This document shows positions 17,645 through 27,809 of a DNA stretch of 64,000 bases, piece after piece. Location of the stretch: positions 1-64,000 of the forward strand of contig NZ_MSIT01000006.1 in NCBI RefSeq assembly GCF_002094885.1. Direction: 5' to 3'. The notes under the pieces are model-generated. The model was not told where the DNA came from. It did not search any database and saw only the letters and a program-made list of their open reading frames with translations. This DNA comes from Salibaculum halophilum (lineage in GTDB: Bacteria; Pseudomonadota; Alphaproteobacteria; Rhodobacterales; Rhodobacteraceae). Positions within the stretch are counted from its first letter, which is position 1. Each line of letters starts with the position of its first letter. The position numbers and the translations under genes were made by a program.

Positions 17645-18018
17645 GGCAAGCTCCTTGGGCGGTTGGTGACAAGCCTAACGCGCGGTGCCGGCATCACCAC
17701 CGCAGCCACCGCCCCACCCCGCGCTGCGGATGCACCCCAGCGATCGGATGCCCGGATTCAGGGCAAGACGCCCGGAACATGTGCAAAATGGCAACCTGCC
17801 TGCGGCGGCGGCGGGCCGGTCCCATTGCGCGGGCATCGCGGCGCACCAAGGCGGCTCAAGGCCATCACCGGTGCCGCGCGCATGCGACAGAACCGTCGCC
17901 GCGACATTGATCCCGCATCGACGCGCGCCACTTCTGGTCAGCGGGGAACTTTGATCGGCTGGTCCCTACCCGGGCCCGGGCTTTGGCATTTTCCCGTGAA
18001 TGGGTCAGGACTCGCACG
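17645..18018. other. divergent intergenic region between ureD and the EEP-family gene
   Basis: This 374-nt stretch has no convincing gene. It must carry the urease operon promoter (minus) and a promoter for the next plus-strand gene. I see no clear sigma-70 or sigma-54 boxes and no obvious NtrC-type dyad. The only marked feature is a GC-rich palindrome (ACCCGGGCCCGGG) near 17970, just upstream of the plus-strand gene. Confidence 0.5.
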
Positions 18019-18756
18019 ATGACATGCCTGTCGATCATCAGCTGGAACATACACCGCGGCCGCGGCGAGGATGGCGTGGTCGACCCGGCGCGCACGCTGG
18101 ACGTGCTGACGCGAGAGGTCGCCGCGCCGCCGCCTGACCTTGTCATTTTGCAGGAGGCGGACGCGGAGGCCCTGCCCCACCGCGGGATTCTCGATCTCGA
18201 CGCCATCGCGGCACGCACCGGCCTGCGGCATCTTCACCGCACCCCGGAGAGCCGCTGGGGCCCGGACAGCCATGGCTTTCTCGGGGTCGTCTTCCTTGCC
18301 GGTGACGGTATCGCCGTCGAGTCCATCACCGTGATCGACCTGCCCGGGCATTGCCACCGCGGGGCCGTCATTGCCGACCTGCGCAAGGACGGCGCGCCGT
18401 GTCGGGTCGTGGGCACGCATTTGTCGCTGACCCAGGTGCTGCGGATCGCCCAGTTGCGGACGCTGGGGCAGTACCTGTTCCGCAGGCCCGCCCGGCCGAC
18501 CGTCCTGTGCGGGGATCTGAACGAATGGCGCCCCTGGGGCGGCGCGGCGCTGTCGCGCGCCGTCCTCGGCGACCGATACACCGGCCCGGTCCCGGCCACG
18601 TTCCCGGTGCGCCGTCCCCTGCTGGGGCTGGATCGCGTTCTCGGCGCGGGCGGCGCGTATGTCCGGCACGCGCGGGTGCTTGACGGGCCGGGCATCCGCA
18701 TCGCCTCGGATCACCGGCCGCTCAGGGCCGAAATCGAAGTACCGCCGCCGGGCTAA
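18019..18756 (+). CDS. endonuclease/exonuclease/phosphatase-family hydrolase
   Basis: A 245-aa protein of the EEP (DNase I-like) fold. Motifs: SWNIHRGRGEDG at the N-terminus (Asn metal contact), LVILQEADAE (catalytic Glu), LCGDLNEW and the final ASDHRPL (catalytic Asp-His). No signal peptide is evident from the ATG at 18019; an in-frame ATG at 17983 would add 12 residues. Bacterial relatives act on nucleic acids, phosphoinositides or sphingomyelin. Its place beside glucan and phospholipid genes makes a phosphodiester envelope substrate possible, but this is inference. It converges with opgG, whose stop is 1 nt away. Confidence 0.85.
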   Translation: MTCLSIISWNIHRGRGEDGVVDPARTLDVLTREVAAPPPDLVILQEADAEALPHRGILDLDAIAARTGLRHLHRTPESRWGPDSHGFLGVVFLAGDGIAVESITVIDLPGHCHRGAVIADLRKDGAPCRVVGTHLSLTQVLRIAQLRTLGQYLFRRPARPTVLCGDLNEWRPWGGAALSRAVLGDRYTGPVPATFPVRRPLLGLDRVLGAGGAYVRHARVLDGPGIRIASDHRPLRAEIEVPPPG

Positions 18757-18757
18757 G

Positions 18758-20257
18758 CTAGACGCCGCCGTCGCGCGCGCGTGTCCAACGATGAACCCAG
18801 ACCGACGGCGCAGAGCTTTGGCCGTCGTGCAGGGCGACACGGATATCGGCCGCGTCGATCCCCTCGCCCGGCAAGAGCACGAAGGTCAGCCGCGTGCCGC
18901 GCCCGTCCGGCAAGGCGAAGACGCTGACGCCCTCGATGGCGACCGTCGCCGGGGCGGTGATCTCCGGCCGCAGGCCGTCGGGGCCGCCCGTGACATCGAC
19001 GACGTACCGGCGGGCGCCGGGGCGGTGGTGGGCAAGCCCGCTGCGGCTCTGGAGGACGGCGCGCGCGGCACCGTCTTGCGGTGCCGCCCGCGTCCAGGTG
19101 ATGGAATAGGTGAAGCGATGCTCGGTGCCGGCCAGCAACGGCACCTCGGGCCGCCAGAAGGCAACGACGTTGTCCATGAACTCGTCACCGGTGGGAATCT
19201 CGACCAGCATCACCGCCCCGCGCCCCCAGTCGCCCGCCGGTCGCACGATGGCCGAGGGGCGGGCGTGATATCGCGCCTCGGTGTCCTGGTAATCCTCGAA
19301 GCGGCGCGGGGTCTGGAACAGCCCGAAACTGGCCGGGCCGTCATCGACGAAGGCCGAGGTCTCGACCCGGGCCGGATTGGCGATCGGCCGCCAGAGGCGT
19401 TCGCCCGCGCCGTTCTCGATCTGCAGAAGATCGCTGTCGTGCACCCGCGGCCGGAAATCGTCGCTGACGGCGCTGCGCAGCGGCCCCTTGAGGTACATCG
19501 ACGTCAGCGGCGCGACACCGATGTCGTCGATGTCACGGCGCGGCAGCAGCGTGACCGCGATATCGGTGACGGTGTCGCGCCCCGGCCGCAGGGTCATGTC
19601 GAGATGCCCGGCCAGCGATGGGCTGTCGATGACCCCCTCGATCCGGACTGTGCCCCCGCGCGCCGGGTGCAGCCGCAGGTGGGTGAAGCGCGGAAACTCC
19701 TCGGGCGCGGGGCCGCCGGTTCCCAGGGCGACACCGCGCGCGGACAGGCCGTAGACCATGTCCTGCCCGATGGCGCGGAAGTAGCTGGCCCCCTGCAGCA
19801 CCAGCACCTCGTCCAGGCGGTCGGGCGCGTTCAGCGGATGGCGCAGCCGCAGCCCCGAAAAGCCGGCCTCCGGCACGGTGTCGGGCACATCCGCGAAAAA
19901 GCGATCGTCGAAGGCGAAGAGATCTGGCGAGAAATCGACGGGCGTGGGGCCGCTGCCATCGTCCACGTCGATGCGCACCGGGTCGGGAAAGAACAGGCCC
20001 GGTGGCAGCAGGTCGAAGGCGAACTTTGGGCCGTGGTCCAGCAGGGCCGCGCGGCCCGGCAGGGGCCGAATGCCGCGGTAGGCCTCGTAGCTCAGATCGG
20101 CGAAAGGCTCCGGCAAGGGCGGGGCATGGGCGGCGAAGGGGCGCGCGGCGAGGCGGCGGGCCTTGGCCAGCAGCGTCTCGGCGGGCCGGGCCGCTGACCG
20201 AAGGCCGGGCATCAGCCCCGACGCGGCAACCCCGGCGATAAAGCTGCGCCGCCGCAT
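18758..20257 (-). CDS. opgG: osmoregulated periplasmic glucan biosynthesis protein (OpgG/OpgD family)
   Basis: A 499-aa exported protein of the MdoG family, which shapes or branches periplasmic glucan chains. The N-terminus MRRRSFIAGVAASGLMPG is a Tat-type signal (RRRSF), as in E. coli OpgD rather than OpgG. Family segments include LSYEAYRGIRPLP, the FRAIGQDMVYGLSARGVALGTG region and DFRPRVHDSDLL. The length fits (500-530 aa). Its ATG shares one base with the opgH stop, so it is translated from the same transcript after opgH, the reverse of the E. coli gene order. Assignment to OpgG or OpgD is uncertain; the symbol marks the family. Confidence 0.9.
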   Translation of the reverse strand: MRRRSFIAGVAASGLMPGLRSAARPAETLLAKARRLAARPFAAHAPPLPEPFADLSYEAYRGIRPLPGRAALLDHGPKFAFDLLPPGLFFPDPVRIDVDDGSGPTPVDFSPDLFAFDDRFFADVPDTVPEAGFSGLRLRHPLNAPDRLDEVLVLQGASYFRAIGQDMVYGLSARGVALGTGGPAPEEFPRFTHLRLHPARGGTVRIEGVIDSPSLAGHLDMTLRPGRDTVTDIAVTLLPRRDIDDIGVAPLTSMYLKGPLRSAVSDDFRPRVHDSDLLQIENGAGERLWRPIANPARVETSAFVDDGPASFGLFQTPRRFEDYQDTEARYHARPSAIVRPAGDWGRGAVMLVEIPTGDEFMDNVVAFWRPEVPLLAGTEHRFTYSITWTRAAPQDGAARAVLQSRSGLAHHRPGARRYVVDVTGGPDGLRPEITAPATVAIEGVSVFALPDGRGTRLTFVLLPGEGIDAADIRVALHDGQSSAPSVWVHRWTRARDGGV

Positions 20258-21870
20258 CAGACCGGCGCCTCCAGCACGCGCATGACCAGCGGCGCGCAAC
20301 ACAGCGGCAGGGCGACGGGGGCAAGCCATAGCGCGGCCGGCCCCGCCAGCGGCACGGCGAGCGCCACGAGCGCCCAACCGGCGAACGCCTCGCCTAGCCC
20401 CGGCGGCAGCATGCGCTGTGCCCCTTTGCCCGACTTCCAGCCGCAGTCGCGGCCAAGGCACACCGATAGGACAGATCGCGTCTGGCGCAGCATCACCAGC
20501 GGCGCGATGAGCGACGACACCGCAAGCTCGCCGAGCGCGGCCCGCAGCATGACCACGCGCCGTCGCAGGGTCCGGGCGGCCTGCCAGCGCTCCAGCAGCG
20601 CACAGAGCTTGGGCGTGAGCAAGACGCCCGCCACGACGATCAGGGGCAGTTCCCCCGATACCGGAACCCCGCCGAACGCGACCAGCACGACGAGGATCAG
20701 CCAGATCGGCGCCACGAGATAGCTGAGAACCCCCATGGCCAGGTGGACACGACTGGTCGGCGTCAGCCCGGGTTCGGCCAACAGCCGCAGGTGCTGCAGA
20801 TTGCCCTGGCACCAGCGTCGGTCGCGCGCGTGGAATGCGTCGATGGTCTGCGGGGCCTCTTCGGCACTGCCGCCAATGTCGGGGTCGAGCGCGACGGCCC
20901 ACCCCGCGCGCCGGATCCAGGCGGCCTCGACGAAATCGTGGCTCAGGATCATGCCGCCCCAGGGCGCAGCCCCCGAAAGGTGCGGCAGGCTGCGGGCGCT
21001 GCGGAACGCCGCCACGCGCATGATCGCATTGTGGCCCCAGTAGTTGCCGCTGCGCCCGCTCCAGGCGGCTAGGCCACGGCCGAACCCCGGCGCCAGCAAG
21101 CACGAGGCGACACGCTGATGGCGGCCGAAGCGGGTCCGCCCCCTGAGAATGCCGATTCCGGCCTGCAAGAGGCCGAGGTCCGGCTCCTGCTCCATGCGCC
21201 GGATCATGCGCGCGACGCGATGCGCCGAGACGCGGCTGTCGGCGTCCAGCACCAGCATGTGATCGAAATGCGCGCCGTGGCTGTCGACCCAGTCGCCGAT
21301 ATTGCCGGGCTTGCGCCCGGTGTTTTCGGCACGGCGCCGATACGTCAGCACGCCAGCAGCATGCGCTGTCAGAAGCGCCGCCTCCTCACGGGCGACATTC
21401 TCGCGCCCCGAGGTGTCCGACAGGACGAAAATCTGCACGGTCTCGCCCAGCCCGATCCGCGCCAGGCTGGCGCGCAGGGCGGCGAGGTGCGCGGCGAGCG
21501 GCCGCGGGTCCTCGTTGCAAACGGTAATCAGGAGCGCCGTCCGCGTACTCGGGCGCCAATGGGCGGGCAGTCGCGTGCTGCGCGCGTCCGGCACGACCAA
21601 CCCCAGAAGCGCCGTGGCCGCGCCGCCGGAAATCCAGATCGCGGTCACGGTGACAAGAGGCAGCGCGATCATGGCCGCCGGCGTCCAGGCTGTCAGGCTG
21701 GTCACGAAGGCGGCAACAATGGCAATCGTCATGGACAGCGCGAGTGCCAAGACGGTGACCGTTGGACCGTGCCACGGCGTCTCGACGATGCTGGCCCGCG
21801 GCCACGGGTCCTGCGGCGATGCCGGGTCGGCAGAGCCTGCCTGTTGGATCAAGCGTGGTTCAACGCGCAT
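20257..21870 (-). CDS. opgH: glucans biosynthesis glucosyltransferase
   Basis: A 537-aa inner-membrane GT2 enzyme that polymerises glucose from UDP-glucose into the periplasmic glucan backbone. Two N-terminal helices (about 40-90) precede the catalytic domain with ITVCNEDP, LVLDADSRVS (DxD-type), SHDFVEAAWI (base Asp) and RDRRWCQGN (the Q/RxxRW motif). Several helices follow from about 380. It is much shorter than E. coli OpgH (847 aa), lacking most of the N-terminal extension. The start at 21870 (MRVEPRLIQ) is chosen because upstream codons run into the cytochrome gene. Confidence 0.92.
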   Translation of the reverse strand: MRVEPRLIQQAGSADPASPQDPWPRASIVETPWHGPTVTVLALALSMTIAIVAAFVTSLTAWTPAAMIALPLVTVTAIWISGGAATALLGLVVPDARSTRLPAHWRPSTRTALLITVCNEDPRPLAAHLAALRASLARIGLGETVQIFVLSDTSGRENVAREEAALLTAHAAGVLTYRRRAENTGRKPGNIGDWVDSHGAHFDHMLVLDADSRVSAHRVARMIRRMEQEPDLGLLQAGIGILRGRTRFGRHQRVASCLLAPGFGRGLAAWSGRSGNYWGHNAIMRVAAFRSARSLPHLSGAAPWGGMILSHDFVEAAWIRRAGWAVALDPDIGGSAEEAPQTIDAFHARDRRWCQGNLQHLRLLAEPGLTPTSRVHLAMGVLSYLVAPIWLILVVLVAFGGVPVSGELPLIVVAGVLLTPKLCALLERWQAARTLRRRVVMLRAALGELAVSSLIAPLVMLRQTRSVLSVCLGRDCGWKSGKGAQRMLPPGLGEAFAGWALVALAVPLAGPAALWLAPVALPLCCAPLVMRVLEAPV

Positions 21871-21910
21871 GCGCTCCGACTTAATCCGACAGTCGATCCG
21901 GGCAACAGCC

Positions 21911-22468
21911 CTATCCCCCGCGCCCGGCAAAGGGTGGCCACATGCGCGATACCACGCCATCCCGGCGAACGAGGCCGTGATAGGCCGCCGCGGCGATATG
22001 AACGGCGATGACAGCGCCCAGCGCGATCCCAGCGAAGTAGTGGACAGTCTTGGCCGTCTCGGCCAGCGCCTCGGAGCGCGGCACGAGCGACGGCGCGCCC
22101 AGCGCATCCAGCGACTCGATCGGGAACCCCCCCGCCTTGACCCGGATGTAGCCCGCCACGGGCATGATCAGAAGCAGCGCGTAGAGAGACCCGTGCGACA
22201 GCCCAGCGGCCCGTCTCTGCCAGCCGGGCAGATCGTCGGGCAGGCCCGCGGGCGGATGCCGCCACCGGTACAGAGCTCGCAGGATCAGCAGTAAGAAGAC
22301 CGCGATCCCGACGTTCTTGTGAAACAGGAAAAGCGCGTTGGACAGGCTGCGGTTCAGGTCGGGGCGGATCATCAGGACCCCGGCTGCGATCATGGCGATG
22401 ACCAGAACGGCCATCGCCCAATGAAGCAGTCGCGCGGGGCGTCTGTATTGAAAGTCGACTTTGGCCAC
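21911..22468 (-). CDS. cytochrome b561-family protein
   Basis: A 185-aa four-helix membrane protein with His ligands in RLLHWAMAVLV, LFHKNVG, LSHGSLYALL and KTVHYFAG, the pattern of prokaryotic cytochrome b561. These proteins move electrons between the quinone pool and periplasmic acceptors such as superoxide. The start is GTG with a strong ribosome site (GGAGGGG). It is the first gene of the minus-strand group, 40 nt before opgH, so a shared transcript with the glucan genes is likely. Confidence 0.9.
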   Translation of the reverse strand: MAKVDFQYRRPARLLHWAMAVLVIAMIAAGVLMIRPDLNRSLSNALFLFHKNVGIAVFLLLILRALYRWRHPPAGLPDDLPGWQRRAAGLSHGSLYALLLIMPVAGYIRVKAGGFPIESLDALGAPSLVPRSEALAETAKTVHYFAGIALGAVIAVHIAAAAYHGLVRRDGVVSRMWPPFAGRGG

Positions 22469-22571
22469 GCACCCCTCCGTCTTTCGCTCCGCGCCGCAAA
22501 ATCGAGCATAGCGCGCGCAGGCGGCGCTTCAAGAACCCGCGCCCGGGCTTGACTGTTCCCGGACGCGCCCA

Positions 22572-22589
22572 ATGTCATCCCCATGTCAT
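22572..22589 (+). promoter_or_regulatory. PHO-box-like direct repeat at the CDP-alcohol transferase operon
   Basis: Two identical heptamers, ATGTCAT-CCCC-ATGTCAT, with the 7+4+7 spacing of a PhoB site (consensus CTGTCAT repeated every 11 nt; each copy 6/7). The second copy overlaps the first possible ATG (22583) of the gene. If the site is used, translation would more likely start at the in-frame ATG at 22616, which leaves 26 nt between box and start, like the spacing seen at ppk. Confidence 0.5.
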
Positions 22590-23332
22590 TCGTCCGGACG
22601 GAAACCCCCAAGCCAATGACGCCCGGGCATCGGCCCGCAATCGGGGCGCCGGTCGGCGTTTTCGCCATTGCTTCCGCTGCGCTGATGCCGGCTGTCGTCG
22701 CGCTGACAAGCGTTCTGCCCGCGTCGGGCATCGCTTCGGCGGGCCTTGTGCTGGTCTGCTTCACCATCGGCGTGGCCGCGGCGGCGCGGGCGCTGCATGG
22801 CGGCTATCCGCATGCGCGACTAGGGGCCTGCAATGTCATCACCTTGACGCGGCTCGCCCTGACCATGGCGCTGCTGGGGCCGCTTGTTGCGGGCGCCGGG
22901 CCGTCCTGGCCGATCCTTGCCGTGGCGCTTGTCACGCTGCTGCTCGACGGGGCCGACGGCTGGGTCGCGCGGCGTCAGGGCACGACCTCGGCCTTCGGGG
23001 CGCGCTTCGACCTCGAGGTCGACTCCGCCCTCGCGCTTGTCTTGGCCATCGGCGCGGCAACCGCCGGTACCGTGGGGCCGGCCGCGCTCCTCCTCGGGCT
23101 GCCGAGATACCTGTTCGCCGGCGGGATGTGGTTTTTCCCCTGGATGCGGCGGGACCTTCCGCCGCGGTTCAGCCGCAAGACCGTTTGCGTGGTGCAACTG
23201 GGCACGCTGATCGCGCTGCAGGCGCCGGTCCTGCCCGCGGTCGCGACCCCGGTCCTCATGGCCGTGGCGCTGGCGCTGCTGGCCTGGTCGTTCATGTTGG
23301 ATCTGGTCTGGCTCTGGCGGCACCGGGCATGA
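22583..23332 (+). CDS. CDP-alcohol phosphatidyltransferase family protein
   Basis: A 249-aa membrane enzyme (238 aa if the ATG at 22616 is used) of the class that joins a CDP-diacylglycerol or similar donor to an alcohol. The signature D-x2-DG-x2-AR-x8-G-x3-D-x3-D is complete in LLDGADGWVARRQG and GARFDLEVDS. About six hydrophobic helices. Product could be phosphatidylglycerol-phosphate, phosphatidylinositol or another head group; not decidable. Its stop overlaps the sulfatase-fold gene (ATGA). There is no good Shine-Dalgarno site before the 22583 start. Confidence 0.88.
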   Translation: MSFVRTETPKPMTPGHRPAIGAPVGVFAIASAALMPAVVALTSVLPASGIASAGLVLVCFTIGVAAAARALHGGYPHARLGACNVITLTRLALTMALLGPLVAGAGPSWPILAVALVTLLLDGADGWVARRQGTTSAFGARFDLEVDSALALVLAIGAATAGTVGPAALLLGLPRYLFAGGMWFFPWMRRDLPPRFSRKTVCVVQLGTLIALQAPVLPAVATPVLMAVALALLAWSFMLDLVWLWRHRA

Positions 23333-24966
23333 CGCGGCCGTGCATGGCCGACCTGTCCCGGCTGGGCCTCGCCGCGCTGATCCTGCATGTGTTGCTGATC
23401 CAGCCCAACCACCCGGACTCGATAACATGGGCGGCGCTTTTCGTGTTTCCGCTGGAACTACCGGCCGTCCTGCTCGGGCTGGCGGCCCTGCCGGCAGCGC
23501 GCTGGGGCGTCGTCGCGCGGGGCGTGCTGGTGGCGGTCCTGACGGTGATCGCGGTCCTGAAGGCGGCTGACCTCGCGATGTTCACGGCGCTGGGGCGCGG
23601 GTTCAATCCGGTCGCCGATCTGCCGCTGATCCCGGCCGGATTGCGCCTGGCGACGGGGGCCATGGGCCCGGCGCTCACTCTCGGGGCCGTGCTCGCGGCT
23701 TTGCTGACATCGGCCCTCGTCGCCTGGGCCCTGTGGTGGGCCACGTCCGTCTGGGCGCGGATCGCCGCGCCGCGCCCCGTTGCAGGCGGTCTTGCCACGG
23801 CGTCGATCCTGTCTGCCGGGGTCGCGACCGCGCAGGTCGGCGCGGCCATGGGGCACTGGAGCCTGCCGGTCTCGCCCCCCGGGGCGGCCTTCACGGCGCG
23901 AGTCGGGGTGGAGCGGTTCGGCATGGCGCGCAAGACCCTGGCCGATCTGCGCGCGTTCAAGGCCGCCGCGGCCGAGGACCCCTTTGCCGGCCGCGCTGAC
24001 CTGTTGGCGGGGATCGACCGGGATGTCCTGGTCGTCTTCGTCGAAAGCTATGGACGCACGAGCCTTGACACGCCGCTCTATGCCGACACGCACCGCGCCA
24101 CGCTGGAACAGGGGCAAGCCCGGCTGGAGGCCGCGGGGCTGTCGATGCGCTCGGGCCTTTTGCGGGCGCCGACGCGCGGCGGCCAGAGCTGGCTGAGCCA
24201 TGCCACCTTCGCCAACGGGCTTTGGATCGCCGATCAGACGCGTTACGGTGCCGCGCTGGCCAGCACGCGGCAATCGCTTTTCCACCTTGCCGCGGAGGCG
24301 GGCTTTCATACCGCCGCGGTGATGCCGCAGATCACCCTGGAATGGCCGGAAGCCACCCGCATGGGGTTCGAGACCGTCCTGGCGGCCGAGGACCTCGGCT
24401 ATGCGGGGCCGGCCTTCAACTGGGTGACAATGCCCGATCAGTTCACCCTGGCCGCACTTGACAGGCTGTTGCGCGAACAGACGGCCGACAGGCCGCTTTT
24501 CGCGCAGATCGCGCTGGGGTCGTCGCATGCGCCCTGGGTGCCGGTGCCCGACCTCGTCGCCTGGGAGGCGATCGAGGACGGCACCATCTTCGCGCGCATG
24601 GCCCGGGCGGGCGACCCGCCGGACGTGGTCTGGCGCGATCATGACCGGGTGCGCGACCAGTATCGCCGGGCTGTGGATTACGCGCTTCGCGTCGTGCTCG
24701 ACTACGCGGCCCGTCATGCCGAAAATCCGCCGTTGATCTTCGTGGTCGGGGATCACCAGGCCGCGAGCTTCGTGGCGCAGGACGAGCGGCCCGATGTGCC
24801 CGTCCACCTGATCGGCCCCGAGGCGCTGGTCGCGGCGGCCGAAAACTGGGGCTGGACCCGCGGACTGATCCCACGCGACACGGCCGAGGTGCGGTCGATG
24901 GCGCGAATGCGCGACATGATCCTCGAGGCCTATTCGCGCCCTGTCAACAAAGGGGCGGACACGTGA
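23329..24966 (+). CDS. membrane-anchored sulfatase-fold enzyme (LtaS/OpgB-like phosphoglycerol transferase candidate)
   Basis: A 545-aa protein with four N-terminal membrane helices (about 8-25, 40-60, 65-90, 110-140), one more near 155-175, then a periplasmic alkaline-phosphatase/sulfatase domain from about 220. Metal-site pieces are VVFVESYGRTS, a nucleophile-like Ser/Thr in RGGQSWLSHATF, SSHAPWVPVP and FVVGDHQAASF. This layout is shared by lipoteichoic acid synthase, phosphoethanolamine transferases and OpgB, which moves glycerophosphate from phosphatidylglycerol to periplasmic glucan. The divergent opgH/opgG genes and the upstream CDP-alcohol transferase favour the OpgB-like role; this is inference. 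Confidence 0.8.
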   Translation: MTRPCMADLSRLGLAALILHVLLIQPNHPDSITWAALFVFPLELPAVLLGLAALPAARWGVVARGVLVAVLTVIAVLKAADLAMFTALGRGFNPVADLPLIPAGLRLATGAMGPALTLGAVLAALLTSALVAWALWWATSVWARIAAPRPVAGGLATASILSAGVATAQVGAAMGHWSLPVSPPGAAFTARVGVERFGMARKTLADLRAFKAAAAEDPFAGRADLLAGIDRDVLVVFVESYGRTSLDTPLYADTHRATLEQGQARLEAAGLSMRSGLLRAPTRGGQSWLSHATFANGLWIADQTRYGAALASTRQSLFHLAAEAGFHTAAVMPQITLEWPEATRMGFETVLAAEDLGYAGPAFNWVTMPDQFTLAALDRLLREQTADRPLFAQIALGSSHAPWVPVPDLVAWEAIEDGTIFARMARAGDPPDVVWRDHDRVRDQYRRAVDYALRVVLDYAARHAENPPLIFVVGDHQAASFVAQDERPDVPVHLIGPEALVAAAENWGWTRGLIPRDTAEVRSMARMRDMILEAYSRPVNKGADT

Positions 24967-25931
24967 CCCTGGGCGGGCGGCAAATCCCGGCCTGGCTGGT
25001 CAGGCTCGGACAGGCGGGGCTCAGCCTCGGCCTTCTGGTGCTGATCTGGCGGGCGGTCGACGGCGCCGCGGCGGCGCGCAGCCTAAAGTCGGCGCAGTGG
25101 GGCTGGTTGACGCTCGGCCTCGTCCTGCTGAGCCTGCAGACCCTGCTGTCGGCGCTGCGCTGGCAGCTGACCGCACGGCACCTGGGGATCGCCCTGGGCA
25201 CCCGGCAGGCGCTGGGGGAATACTACCTGTCGCAAGTGGTGAACCAGTCGCTTCCCGGCGGGATGATCGGGGATGCCGGACGCGCCGTCCGGTCCAGGGG
25301 CGGCGCGGGGCTGATGGCGGCCGGCCAGGCGGTTGTCTTCGAGCGGCTGGCCGGCCAAATCGCCATGTTCGCGACTCTGGGCACGGCGTTCGTCGCGACG
25401 CTGGCCGTTCCGGGCGGGCTGGACTGGCCGGGGTGGGTTGCCGCGCCCGTCGCCGGGGTCCTCGCGGTCGGCCTTTGCCTGCCTGTCTTGGCGCAAGGGG
25501 CGACCCACCTTCCCGGCCGTGCCGGCGCGACGGCGCGGCAGATGCGCGCGGACTTCCTGCGGTCGGTTGCCGCGCGCCCCGTGCTGGCGGGGCAGATCGT
25601 GCTGAGCCTGGGCACGACCCTGTGCAATCTCGCGGCCTTCGCCGCCTGCGCACGCGCTGTCGGCGTCGATCTCGGCCTGTCGGCCACCGCGGCGCTGGTG
25701 CCGGTGATCCTGTTCACCATGCTCATCCCCGTCTCGATCTCGGGCTGGGGTCTGCGAGAGGGCGCCGCGGCCGGCCTGCTGCCGATCGCCGGCGTGAGCG
25801 CGAGCGGCGGACTGGCTGCGAGCATCGCGTTCGGGCTGGTCCTCATCGCGGCGGTCTCGCCGGGCCTTGTGCTGGTCTGGATCACGCCGCGGCAAGAGGC
25901 GCGGGGCACGGGGCAGTTGACGCCGCCCTGA
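24963..25931 (+). CDS. lysylphosphatidylglycerol synthetase-type transmembrane (flippase-like) protein
   Basis: A 322-aa polytopic protein of the UPF0104/LPG_synthase_TM family. It shows eight or so helices and the family segments LGEYYLSQVVNQSLPGGMIGDAGR and IPVSISGWGLREGAA. It corresponds to the membrane (flippase) half of MprF without the aminoacyl-transferase domain. GTG start, overlapping the previous stop as GTGA. As the third gene of the operon it may move a lipid or lipid-linked product made by the first two enzymes. Confidence 0.85.
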   Translation: MTLGGRQIPAWLVRLGQAGLSLGLLVLIWRAVDGAAAARSLKSAQWGWLTLGLVLLSLQTLLSALRWQLTARHLGIALGTRQALGEYYLSQVVNQSLPGGMIGDAGRAVRSRGGAGLMAAGQAVVFERLAGQIAMFATLGTAFVATLAVPGGLDWPGWVAAPVAGVLAVGLCLPVLAQGATHLPGRAGATARQMRADFLRSVAARPVLAGQIVLSLGTTLCNLAAFAACARAVGVDLGLSATAALVPVILFTMLIPVSISGWGLREGAAAGLLPIAGVSASGGLAASIAFGLVLIAAVSPGLVLVWITPRQEARGTGQLTPP

Positions 25932-26020: not shown

Positions 26021-27019
26021 ATGACCAAAGACTTGAACCGTCGCACTTTCCTCGGCACTGGCGCCGCGGCCCTCGGTGCGGGCACGCTGGGCCTGGGATC
26101 GGCCCGCCCGGCCATGGCGCAGACCGCTGTCAGCCTGCAGCTTTCGTGGCTGCATTCCGCGCAGTTCGCCGGCAGCTACATCGCGCTCGACCGCGGCTGG
26201 TGGGCCGAGAGCGGGCTGGCGGTGTCGCTGCTGCCCGGCGGGCCCAACGCCCCGGTCGAACCGCCGGTGGTGTCGGGCACGGCGCTGGTGGGCATCTCGG
26301 CGGCCGACTACACCGCGGCCGCCGTCGCGGAAGGGGCACCGTTCAAGATCATCGGGGTCGCGATGCAGAAAAACCCCTTCGTTATCGCCTCGCTTCCGGC
26401 CAATCCCGTCAATGAGCCGGCCGACCTGGTGGGCAAGCGCATCGGCATGGCCCTTGCGAACACGCCGGTGCTCGAGGCGCTGTGCACCCTGAACGGGGTG
26501 GACATCGACGGCATCGACATCGTGCCCACGCAGTATTCGGCGCAGCCGCTGCTGGCCGGCGAGGTGGACTGCCTGCTGTGCTGGGAAACCGACCTGCCCG
26601 TCGCCATGGACATGCAGGGGGTCGAGAACCAGACCATGCTGATGGCCGATCACGGCTACGCGGTGCATTCGCAGACCTACATCGCCACCGAGGACAGCCT
26701 TGCCAACCGGCGCGGCGATCTGGTCCGGCTGATGTCGGGCGAGGTGCGCGGCTGGGAGGCCTATCGCGCCGACACCGACGCCGCCGCGCGCCTGACGCTC
26801 GAGATGCACCCCGACGCGGGGCTGGACCTTGAAACGCAGAAACTCCAGGCCGCGCGGCAGGTGCCGCTGATGTTTTCCGAGCTGACCGACGCCAACGGGT
26901 TCGGCTGGTGGACCGACGACACGGTCGCGGCGAATGTCGAGACCCTGGGCCTTCTGGGGCGGACCGTTTCGCCCGACCTCTGGGATAGATCCATTCTTGA
27001 AGAGGTTCATGGAACGTGA
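26021..27019 (+). CDS. ABC transporter substrate-binding protein, NMT1/THI5-like
   Basis: A 332-aa periplasmic binding protein with a Tat signal (NRRTFLGTG followed by a hydrophobic stretch and AMAQ). The mature region LQLSWLHSAQFAGSYIALDRGWW is typical of SBPs for thiamine-precursor pyrimidines, nitrate/taurine-type or riboflavin ligands. The start at 26021 has GGAG 6 nt upstream; an in-frame ATG at 26009 is less likely. No TPP riboswitch is seen in the 89-nt leader, only a short dyad GGAAG-CTAA-CTTCC at 25981-25994. The gene overlaps the ATPase start by 11 nt. Confidence 0.88.
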   Translation: MTKDLNRRTFLGTGAAALGAGTLGLGSARPAMAQTAVSLQLSWLHSAQFAGSYIALDRGWWAESGLAVSLLPGGPNAPVEPPVVSGTALVGISAADYTAAAVAEGAPFKIIGVAMQKNPFVIASLPANPVNEPADLVGKRIGMALANTPVLEALCTLNGVDIDGIDIVPTQYSAQPLLAGEVDCLLCWETDLPVAMDMQGVENQTMLMADHGYAVHSQTYIATEDSLANRRGDLVRLMSGEVRGWEAYRADTDAAARLTLEMHPDAGLDLETQKLQAARQVPLMFSELTDANGFGWWTDDTVAANVETLGLLGRTVSPDLWDRSILEEVHGT

Positions 27020-27809
27020 CGTGACACCACCGCCGGACGTCTCGTGCACGGCGCTAGCCAAGACCTTCGAGGGCGGCACGCGGGCAGTCGACCCCATCGA
27101 CCTGACCTTCGAGGAGGGCCAAACGACGGCGCTAGTCGGGCCGTCGGGGTGCGGGAAGTCAACGCTGCTGCGGATGGTGGCCGGACTGGACACGCCGACC
27201 TCCGGCACGGTCGAGATCGGCGGCGCACCGCCCGTGTCCACGCTGCGGCAGGCCGGCCTGTCGATGGCCTTTCAGGACCCGTCGCTTCTGCCGTGGCGAA
27301 CCGTGCGCGGCAATATCGAGCTGGCGCTGAAACTGGCGCGGCACCGGGCCGACCCGGCCGAGATCGACCAGCTGATCGCCCTCGTCGGCCTTGACGGCTT
27401 TGCCGAGACGCGCCCGGCGGAGCTGTCGGGCGGCATGCGGCAACGCGCGGCCATTGCGCGTGCGCTGGCCACGCGCCCGGGCCTGCTGCTGCTGGATGAA
27501 CCCTTCGGGGCGGTGGACGAACTCACCCGGCGGCAACTGTCGCAGGACCTGCCGCGCATCTGGGAGGCCCGCGGAACCACCGCGATCCTCGTGACCCATT
27601 CGGTCAGCGAGGCGGTGCAACTTTCGGACCGGGTCATCGTCCTGTCGCCGCGGCCCGCCACGATCATGGACGACATCACGATCGACCTGCCCCGTCCGCG
27701 TGCCGGGCCTGCCGCCCGCAGCGACGCGGCCACCGCCCTGACCGACCGTGTCTTTGCCGCGCTGTCCAAGGGGATGGCCGAGCGCAGCGCGCCGATGGCG
27801 GCGCAATGA
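27009..27809 (+). CDS. ABC transporter ATP-binding protein (SsuB/ThiZ type)
   Basis: A 266-aa ATPase with Walker A GPSGCGKST (about 45-53), Q-loop FQDPSLLPWRTV, signature LSGGMRQRAAIARAL, Walker B LLLLDEPFGAVD and VTHSVSEAV. This is the nitrate/sulfonate/pyrimidine importer class. The ATG at 27009 lies inside the end of the binding-protein gene; a further upstream start at 26934 would overlap by more than 80 nt and is unlikely. Its stop overlaps the permease start (ATGA). Confidence 0.92.
   Translation: MERDVTPPPDVSCTALAKTFEGGTRAVDPIDLTFEEGQTTALVGPSGCGKSTLLRMVAGLDTPTSGTVEIGGAPPVSTLRQAGLSMAFQDPSLLPWRTVRGNIELALKLARHRADPAEIDQLIALVGLDGFAETRPAELSGGMRQRAAIARALATRPGLLLLDEPFGAVDELTRRQLSQDLPRIWEARGTTAILVTHSVSEAVQLSDRVIVLSPRPATIMDDITIDLPRPRAGPAARSDAATALTDRVFAALSKGMAERSAPMAAQ

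Follow-up and report, generated by a model that had tools for sequence, protein, structure and literature searches.

A PHO-box-like repeat at the start of a glucan-linked operon of Salibaculum halophilum is probably part of a leaderless promoter

OpgB has a sulfatase fold, and its classical partner is DgkA, which removes the diacylglycerol that OpgB leaves behind. The part of PMC3818809 used here describes that the PG and PE head groups are transferred to glucans in E. coli by OpgB and OpgE, the OpgB reaction being a phosphoglycerol transfer from PG, and that a dgk strain supplied with arbutin as an acceptor builds up diacylglycerol to a toxic level. With regard to PhoB, it is reported in the part of PMC3616915 used here that the box of S. 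meliloti lay over the -35 element, 22–25 nt upstream of the transcription start site, in 16 of 33 genes having both a predicted box and a mapped start, and that other predicted boxes lay farther upstream and may repress. The same source reports 171 mapped leaderless mRNAs in this species and a poorly conserved sigma-70 -10 element. In E. coli, the PhoB sites were mostly intragenic, unconserved and without detectable regulation, according to the portion of PMC10294691 used here.

In the window, which is the whole 64,000-nucleotide stretch of S. halophilum DNA analysed in this study, the exact repeat ATGTCAT-CCCC-ATGTCAT (ATGTCATCCCCATGTCAT) lies at 22572-22589 of the plus strand, as stated by the first-pass annotation. 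That annotation had regarded the repeat as a PHO box that places the operon behind it under phosphate control, with the true start codon at 22616. Our analysis suggested instead that the repeat is most likely the core promoter (the -10 region) and the start codons of a leaderless gene, which together mimic a PHO box. A leaderless promoter and a glucan-linked cassette, taken together, form the explanation that we consider likely.

The three-gene cassette and its neighbours

The first gene of the operon (22583-23332, plus strand) encodes a CDP-alcohol phosphatidyltransferase of 249 amino acids (PF01066, E=7.7e-13). The product carries the DxxDGxxAR...G...D...D motif of this family, and D122, D125, G126, A129, R130, G139, D143 and D147 were invariant in 37 aligned sequences chosen for spread. 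The best Foldseek match of its structural model was the PGP synthase 7drj, at a weak E=8.7e-3, and several synthases gave weak matches, so that an assignment to one synthase class would be tentative.

The second gene (23329-24966, plus strand) encodes a membrane-anchored, LtaS/OpgB-like enzyme of 545 amino acids (PF00884, E=2.3e-10). Its structural model (pLDDT 91.3) has a sulfatase-type catalytic fold behind membrane helices and matched LtaS with a Z score of 20.6 (267 residues, 3.7 Å), GacH with 19.8, EptC with 19.2 and BcsG with 19.1, in addition to LtaP, MCR-type enzymes and sulfatases. Hydrolytic sulfatases came close behind, with Z scores of up to 18.7, so a transferase activity cannot be read from the fold by itself. 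In 45 aligned proteins, also chosen for spread, E239, S287, H400 and H476 were found in all, D475 in 44 and T282 in 37. We tentatively take the columns of E239, S287, T282, H400, D475 and H476 to match metal and nucleophile residues of LtaS, and the candidate nucleophile would be S287 or T282. The Pfam matches and the structural model agreed with the gene identities of the first-pass annotation, including that of the LtaS/OpgB-like enzyme.

Compared with the phosphoglycerol transferases LtaS/LtaP and GacH, the modelled catalytic domain has the same fold (Z 19.8–20.6), whereas the identity is 12–15% in the aligned part and the context here is a gram-negative, glucan-related one. Like OpgB of E. 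coli, the protein is a sulfatase-fold membrane enzyme tied genetically to opgG/opgH, but it gave no match in NCBIfam, its operon includes a CDP-alcohol transferase of its own as well as a flippase-like protein, and its genome has no DgkA match. With a limit of E = 1, a PDB sequence search with this protein returned nothing. The genome has one other PF00884 match, which was rejected as a second OpgB, as it looks like an arylsulfatase or choline sulfatase, although below the curated cut-offs for these. The absence of any second OpgB candidate among the PF00884 proteins of the genome agreed with the earlier remark that the classical opgB is lacking.

The third gene (24963-25931, plus strand) encodes an LPG_synthase_TM/flippase-like membrane protein of 322 amino acids (PF03706, E=6.2e-33). 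For comparison, the LtaS-fold gene was found in 398 stretches of a named collection, and the best 80 of these were used; they are mostly from Rhodobacteraceae-type genera, with some from other alphaproteobacteria, and the relatives with the cassette include Tropicimonas sp. IMCC6043, Marivita lacus and Roseicyclus mahoneyensis. In 74 named loci the downstream sequence reached 2.5 kb or more, and the flippase gene was adjacent in 65 of them. After the cassette, the region 26021-27809 holds a gene for an NMT1-type substrate-binding protein (PF09084) and an ORF in which ABC-ATPase motifs were read by eye; an NMT1 gene was seen in 34 of the same 74 loci.

On the minus strand, divergent from the cassette, are a cytochrome b561 gene (21911-22468, PF01292, E=4.6e-32), an opgH-like glucan glucosyltransferase gene (20257-22107 as the longest ORF, whose real start may be further in; NF003962, E=2.1e-164) and a gene for an opgG-like periplasmic glucan protein (18758-20266, PF04349, E=8.7e-146), so the description of divergent opgH/opgG beside the operon held. 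In 70 named loci the upstream sequence reached 4.5 kb or more, and 63 of them had the divergent cytochrome b561 gene there, also where neither opgG nor opgH is nearby. In the upstream 5 kb of these 70 loci, opgG or opgH was present in 31 and absent in 39. A gene of the endonuclease/exonuclease/phosphatase family (17983-18753, PF03372) is convergent to opgG and was a neighbour in 37/70 loci.

The literature search found nothing joining CDP-alcohol phosphatidyltransferase, sulfatase and Rhodobacteraceae. Among the titles and abstract openings listed on PhoB in Rhodobacteraceae, Pcs together with PhoB, PhoB repression over start codons, leaderless mRNAs, OpgC, CgmB/OpgB and Roseobacter glucans, none dealt with the control of these genes.

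The repeat compared with PHO boxes

The repeat has the geometry of a PHO box, with two 7-base half-sites 4 bases apart. Its exact form (ATGTCATN4ATGTCAT) is single-copy in the 2.9-Mb genome. In the 64-kb window there were 7 matches with up to three mismatches, two of them being the same site on both strands, while shuffled sequences gave a mean of 1.30 and none of 100 shuffles reached 7, which indicates that the likeness to the consensus exceeds chance. The shape itself is not rare, as 12 exact 7-mer repeats with an 11-base period occur in the window; the notable feature of this repeat is its resemblance to the PhoB consensus. The looser pattern MTGTCAYN4MTGTCAY was over-represented in the genome at up to two mismatches (136 matches against 29 for the reversed pattern). 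It had two exact matches, 22572-22589 and a site over the start codon of a phosphatidylcholine synthase-like (pcs-like) gene. The pstS box of this genome has two mismatches to the pattern and is neither of them.

The genome contains phoB, and the pst genes adjoin it. The pstS promoter of the same genome carries CTGTTAC-AAAA-CCGTCAT-ATAA-CTGTTGC, the first base of which lies 117 bases upstream of the start. A PHO profile (consensus CTGTCATAAAACTGTTAC) was trained on 29 pstS promoters of the family, leaving out the pstS of this genome, from 30 pstS loci that were the best-scoring matches of 57 of 61 genomes; the score background was the window alone, or also included stretches picked for PHO-like sites. 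The repeat scored 3.8 with this profile, while the own pstS boxes scored 22–24. In the leave-one-out scoring, 28 of the 29 family boxes reached about 13 or more and the remaining one had -1.3. On both strands of the window, 38 of 127,966 positions scored at least as high as the repeat.

Taken together with the geometry and the presence of PhoB, the repeat shares with a pstS-type box two TGTCA-type half-sites 11 bases apart. It differs in its CCCC linker, which is not A-rich, in its poor score with the family profile, in being unconserved in homologues, and in lying over the -10 element and the start codon rather than over the -35 element. Among 62 of the 63 distinct homologous promoters (the window being left out), none had a PHO score of at least 10 at the same register on either strand. 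The best, in locus L089, was 9.1 and that of L048 was 7.1; both exceed the 3.8 of the window without reaching the threshold of 10. The conserved CTTGA (22548-22552) stands upstream of the repeat, which thus does not replace the -35 element, and its position fits neither of the two S. meliloti groups of boxes. Our results suggest that 22572-22589 is probably not a PhoB box and that phosphate control of the operon, as previously proposed, is unlikely.

A parallel case is the second exact match to the looser pattern, at 10341-10358 of contig C5 of the same genome (L164:2842-2859). The top NCBIfam matches of the gene that starts there were five phosphatidylcholine synthase models, all below their cut-offs. 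We compared the starts of pcs-like genes in 70 family genomes, made up of 30 loci (L208-L237) that were the best-scoring matches of 102 of 120 genomes and 40 further ones (L238-L277) taken down the list regardless of the site, with G140 skipped at a contig end and 32 matching genomes outside the sample. TTGC was present at -36 to -34 of the start in 50/70, and CATGA at -12 in 34/70, followed by C in 26, G in 6 and A in 2. A PHO-like repeat in the reverse orientation (PWM score of at least 10, offset -11, minus strand) overlay the start in 9/30 and 8/40 genomes (17/70), and at the other scanned offsets such a score was reached at most once per set. This site may be one more leaderless promoter that looks like a PHO box, or it may be a genuine site of repression by PhoB. 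The part of PMC3972451 used here describes the A. tumefaciens pcs gene as constitutively expressed. Both exact matches in the genome lie at the starts of CDP-alcohol phosphatidyltransferase-like genes, and this coincidence might point to a common regulation.

Promoter and start codon of the first gene

The -35 element CTTGACT (22548-22554, with TTGACT at 22549-22554, plus strand) and the ATG at 22583 are conserved: in 20 homologous upstream regions aligned after hand-choosing for spread, all 20 had CTTGA and all 20 had ATG in the column of 22583. In a survey of 110 loci with a match to the first gene, TTGA[CT] was found at -40 to -31 of an in-frame ATG in 76, the ATG nearest to an offset of -34 being chosen, and no ATG with TTGA[CT] at the expected place was found in 34. 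Of the 63 distinct loci among the 76, 60 had it at -33, -34 or -35. The 110 loci include repeated species in places and 93 are distinct; in an unselected count over 221 in-frame ATGs of these 93, TTGA[CT] occurred 60 times at -33 to -35, compared with a mean of 0.81 per other offset. The earlier choice of 22616 as the start codon is contradicted by this shared column, and translation most likely starts at 22583 rather than at 22616.

A second conserved block of the homologues, with the consensus GCTAANYT at -15 to -8, is an alphaproteobacterial-type -10 element. Relatives have GCTAGACT, GCTATGTC or CTAATGTC at this place, and in the window the same columns hold the weak -10-like element CCCAATGT (22568-22575, plus strand), which overlaps the first ATGTCAT. 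Two relatives show the -10 element turning into ATGTC (GGCTATGTCATGGAAATG in L089 and GTGCTAATGTCACGCAAATG in L048). The window agreed with the homologue consensus at 4 of 7 scored positions, and the homologues at 2 to 7, most of them at 5 or 6. A conserved -35 element and -10 element are found at a fixed distance from the start codon, with 34 of 110 loci as exceptions and a weak -10 in the window. An inverted-repeat operator (ATGTC...ATGACAT), which was considered from L017/L122 and L048, was not seen in most other aligned regions and was rejected.

A promoter model over the homologue columns -16 to +6, built from 36 promoters with an offset of -34, gave the window a score of 11.4 bits, and the leave-one-out scores of the homologues ranged from 0.3 to 24.4. 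Only 4 of 63,978 plus-strand positions of the window scored at least 11.4 bits. The ATG contributed 6.5 of these bits and the -10 columns 3.7; as the -10 element is weak by this measure, the case rests mainly on the -35 element, the spacing and the ATG. A simple sigma-70 scan found no promoter here.

The operon would be driven by a promoter of the alphaproteobacterial housekeeping type with its -35 element at 22548-22554 and a degenerate -10 element at 22568-22575. The -10 element ends 7 bases before the ATG at 22583, which leaves no room for a leader with a ribosome-binding site; the mRNA is thus probably leaderless and would start at or beside this ATG. That the weak -10 element works, the transcription start and the leaderless translation are inferred. 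The first ATGTCAT would be the -10 region and the second the start codon with codon 2 (ATG TCA T), and as both halves fall 11 bases apart by chance, they would mimic a PHO box. The arrangement resembles the alphaproteobacterial leaderless sigma-70 promoters in the CTTGAC of the -35 element, the poorly conserved -10 element a few bases before the AUG and the missing leader. The difference is that the 5' ends were mapped for the leaderless mRNAs of S. meliloti, while the leaderless start is deduced here from the sequence.

Two roles of PhoB have to be weighed against this leaderless promoter. PhoB might bind the repeat and, when phosphate is low, repress the operon by sitting over the -10 element and the start codon, which would spare phosphate from lipids and glucans. 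PhoB is encoded in the genome, and when the linker is ignored the half-sites score 13.5, close to the 13.8 of the first own pstS box, so weak binding by PhoB is conceivable; the pcs-like parallel with its reverse-oriented boxes over the start in relatives (9/30 and 8/40) also keeps this explanation alive. However, the full profile gave only 3.8 with the CCCC linker, none of the 62 homologues reached 10 at the same register (9.1 at best), and the promoter columns explain both halves better, the 18-base repeat having 9.6 bits under them against 3.8 under the PHO model. We consider such repression unlikely. Activation by PhoB at low phosphate from a box upstream of a true start at 22616 could draw on the same encoded PhoB and on the consensus-like 7-4-7 half-sites, but the repeat lies over the -10 element and start behind the conserved CTTGA, unlike the S. 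meliloti boxes over the -35 element, and it is unconserved. Moreover, no TATAAT-like hexamer was seen by eye or by scan between the repeat and 22616, and the alignment contradicts that start. A PHO box acting as an activator was thus rejected on profile score, position and conservation, and we regard it as highly improbable.

Link to periplasmic glucans

The suggestion of an envelope or periplasmic glucan function is the part of the earlier interpretation that is worth keeping, as it agrees with the synteny (31/70 loci) and with the co-occurrence of opgG. The LtaS-fold gene was carried by 53 of 394 family genomes, which span 393 genera and are in some cases incomplete. The opgG gene was present in 51 of the 53 carriers and in 129 of the 341 non-carriers (Fisher p=2.8e-17, uncorrected for phylogeny), which supports a role in glucan metabolism. 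The distribution of dgkA was different: it was found in 12/53 carriers and 132/341 others (p=0.03, toward depletion, uncorrected for phylogeny), and no match was found in this genome. With no dgkA match in this genome and no enrichment of the gene among carriers, the data argue against a simple copy of OpgB or a plain OpgB/DgkA cycle. Recycling of diacylglycerol via DgkA as in the OpgB system was accordingly considered unsupported by co-occurrence, DgkA being the one diacylglycerol kinase covered. Two carriers have dgkA about 5–6 kb from the LtaS-fold gene (G029 on its contig C6, G101 on its contig C1), and 41 of the 53 carriers had no dgkA match.

Based on the gene families, the fold, the synteny and the co-occurrence with opgG, the CDP-alcohol transferase may synthesise PG or a related phosphatidyl lipid as donor, the LtaS-fold enzyme may transfer the phospho-head group of this donor in the periplasm, most likely to the glucans made by opgGH, and the flippase-like protein may move the donor or the spent lipid. 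We judge the chances to be about even that the operon combines donor-lipid synthesis, head-group transfer to periplasmic glucans and flipping. In this reading, transfer rather than hydrolysis, the substrate, the acceptor and the flipping are all inferred. A further, tentative step, which we consider rather doubtful, is that the cassette might be a self-contained glucan-decorating system with its own donor lipid and a flippase-like protein replacing the diacylglycerol cycle of OpgB/DgkA.

On the other hand, it is quite conceivable, if short of probable, that the target of the cassette, for modification or hydrolysis, is a different molecule of the envelope (lipid, lipid A or capsule-like polymer), and that the link to opgG reflects only shared ancestry or envelope ecology. 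The model matched sulfatase-fold relatives acting on many substrates (MCR-type enzymes, EptC, BcsG, GacH, LtaS and sulfatases), 39 of 70 loci had no opg genes in the upstream 5 kb, and dgkA was not enriched in carriers, all of which would agree with another target. Against it, opgG accompanied 51 of the 53 carriers even though it was found in only 180 of the 394 genomes, and these carriers include some with opgG on another contig (e.g., G132, G156 and G397).

Our finding argues against a phosphate switch for this operon that seemed plausible but is probably wrong. It also gives a general warning that, where genes are leaderless, a -10 element 11 bases ahead of the ATG can imitate a PHO box; in this genome, both exact matches to the consensus appear to be such mimics, and the real pstS box differs from the consensus at two positions. 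The analysis also points to an uncharacterised three-gene cassette tied to glucan synthesis, which might account for the charging of periplasmic glucans in some Rhodobacteraceae-type bacteria.
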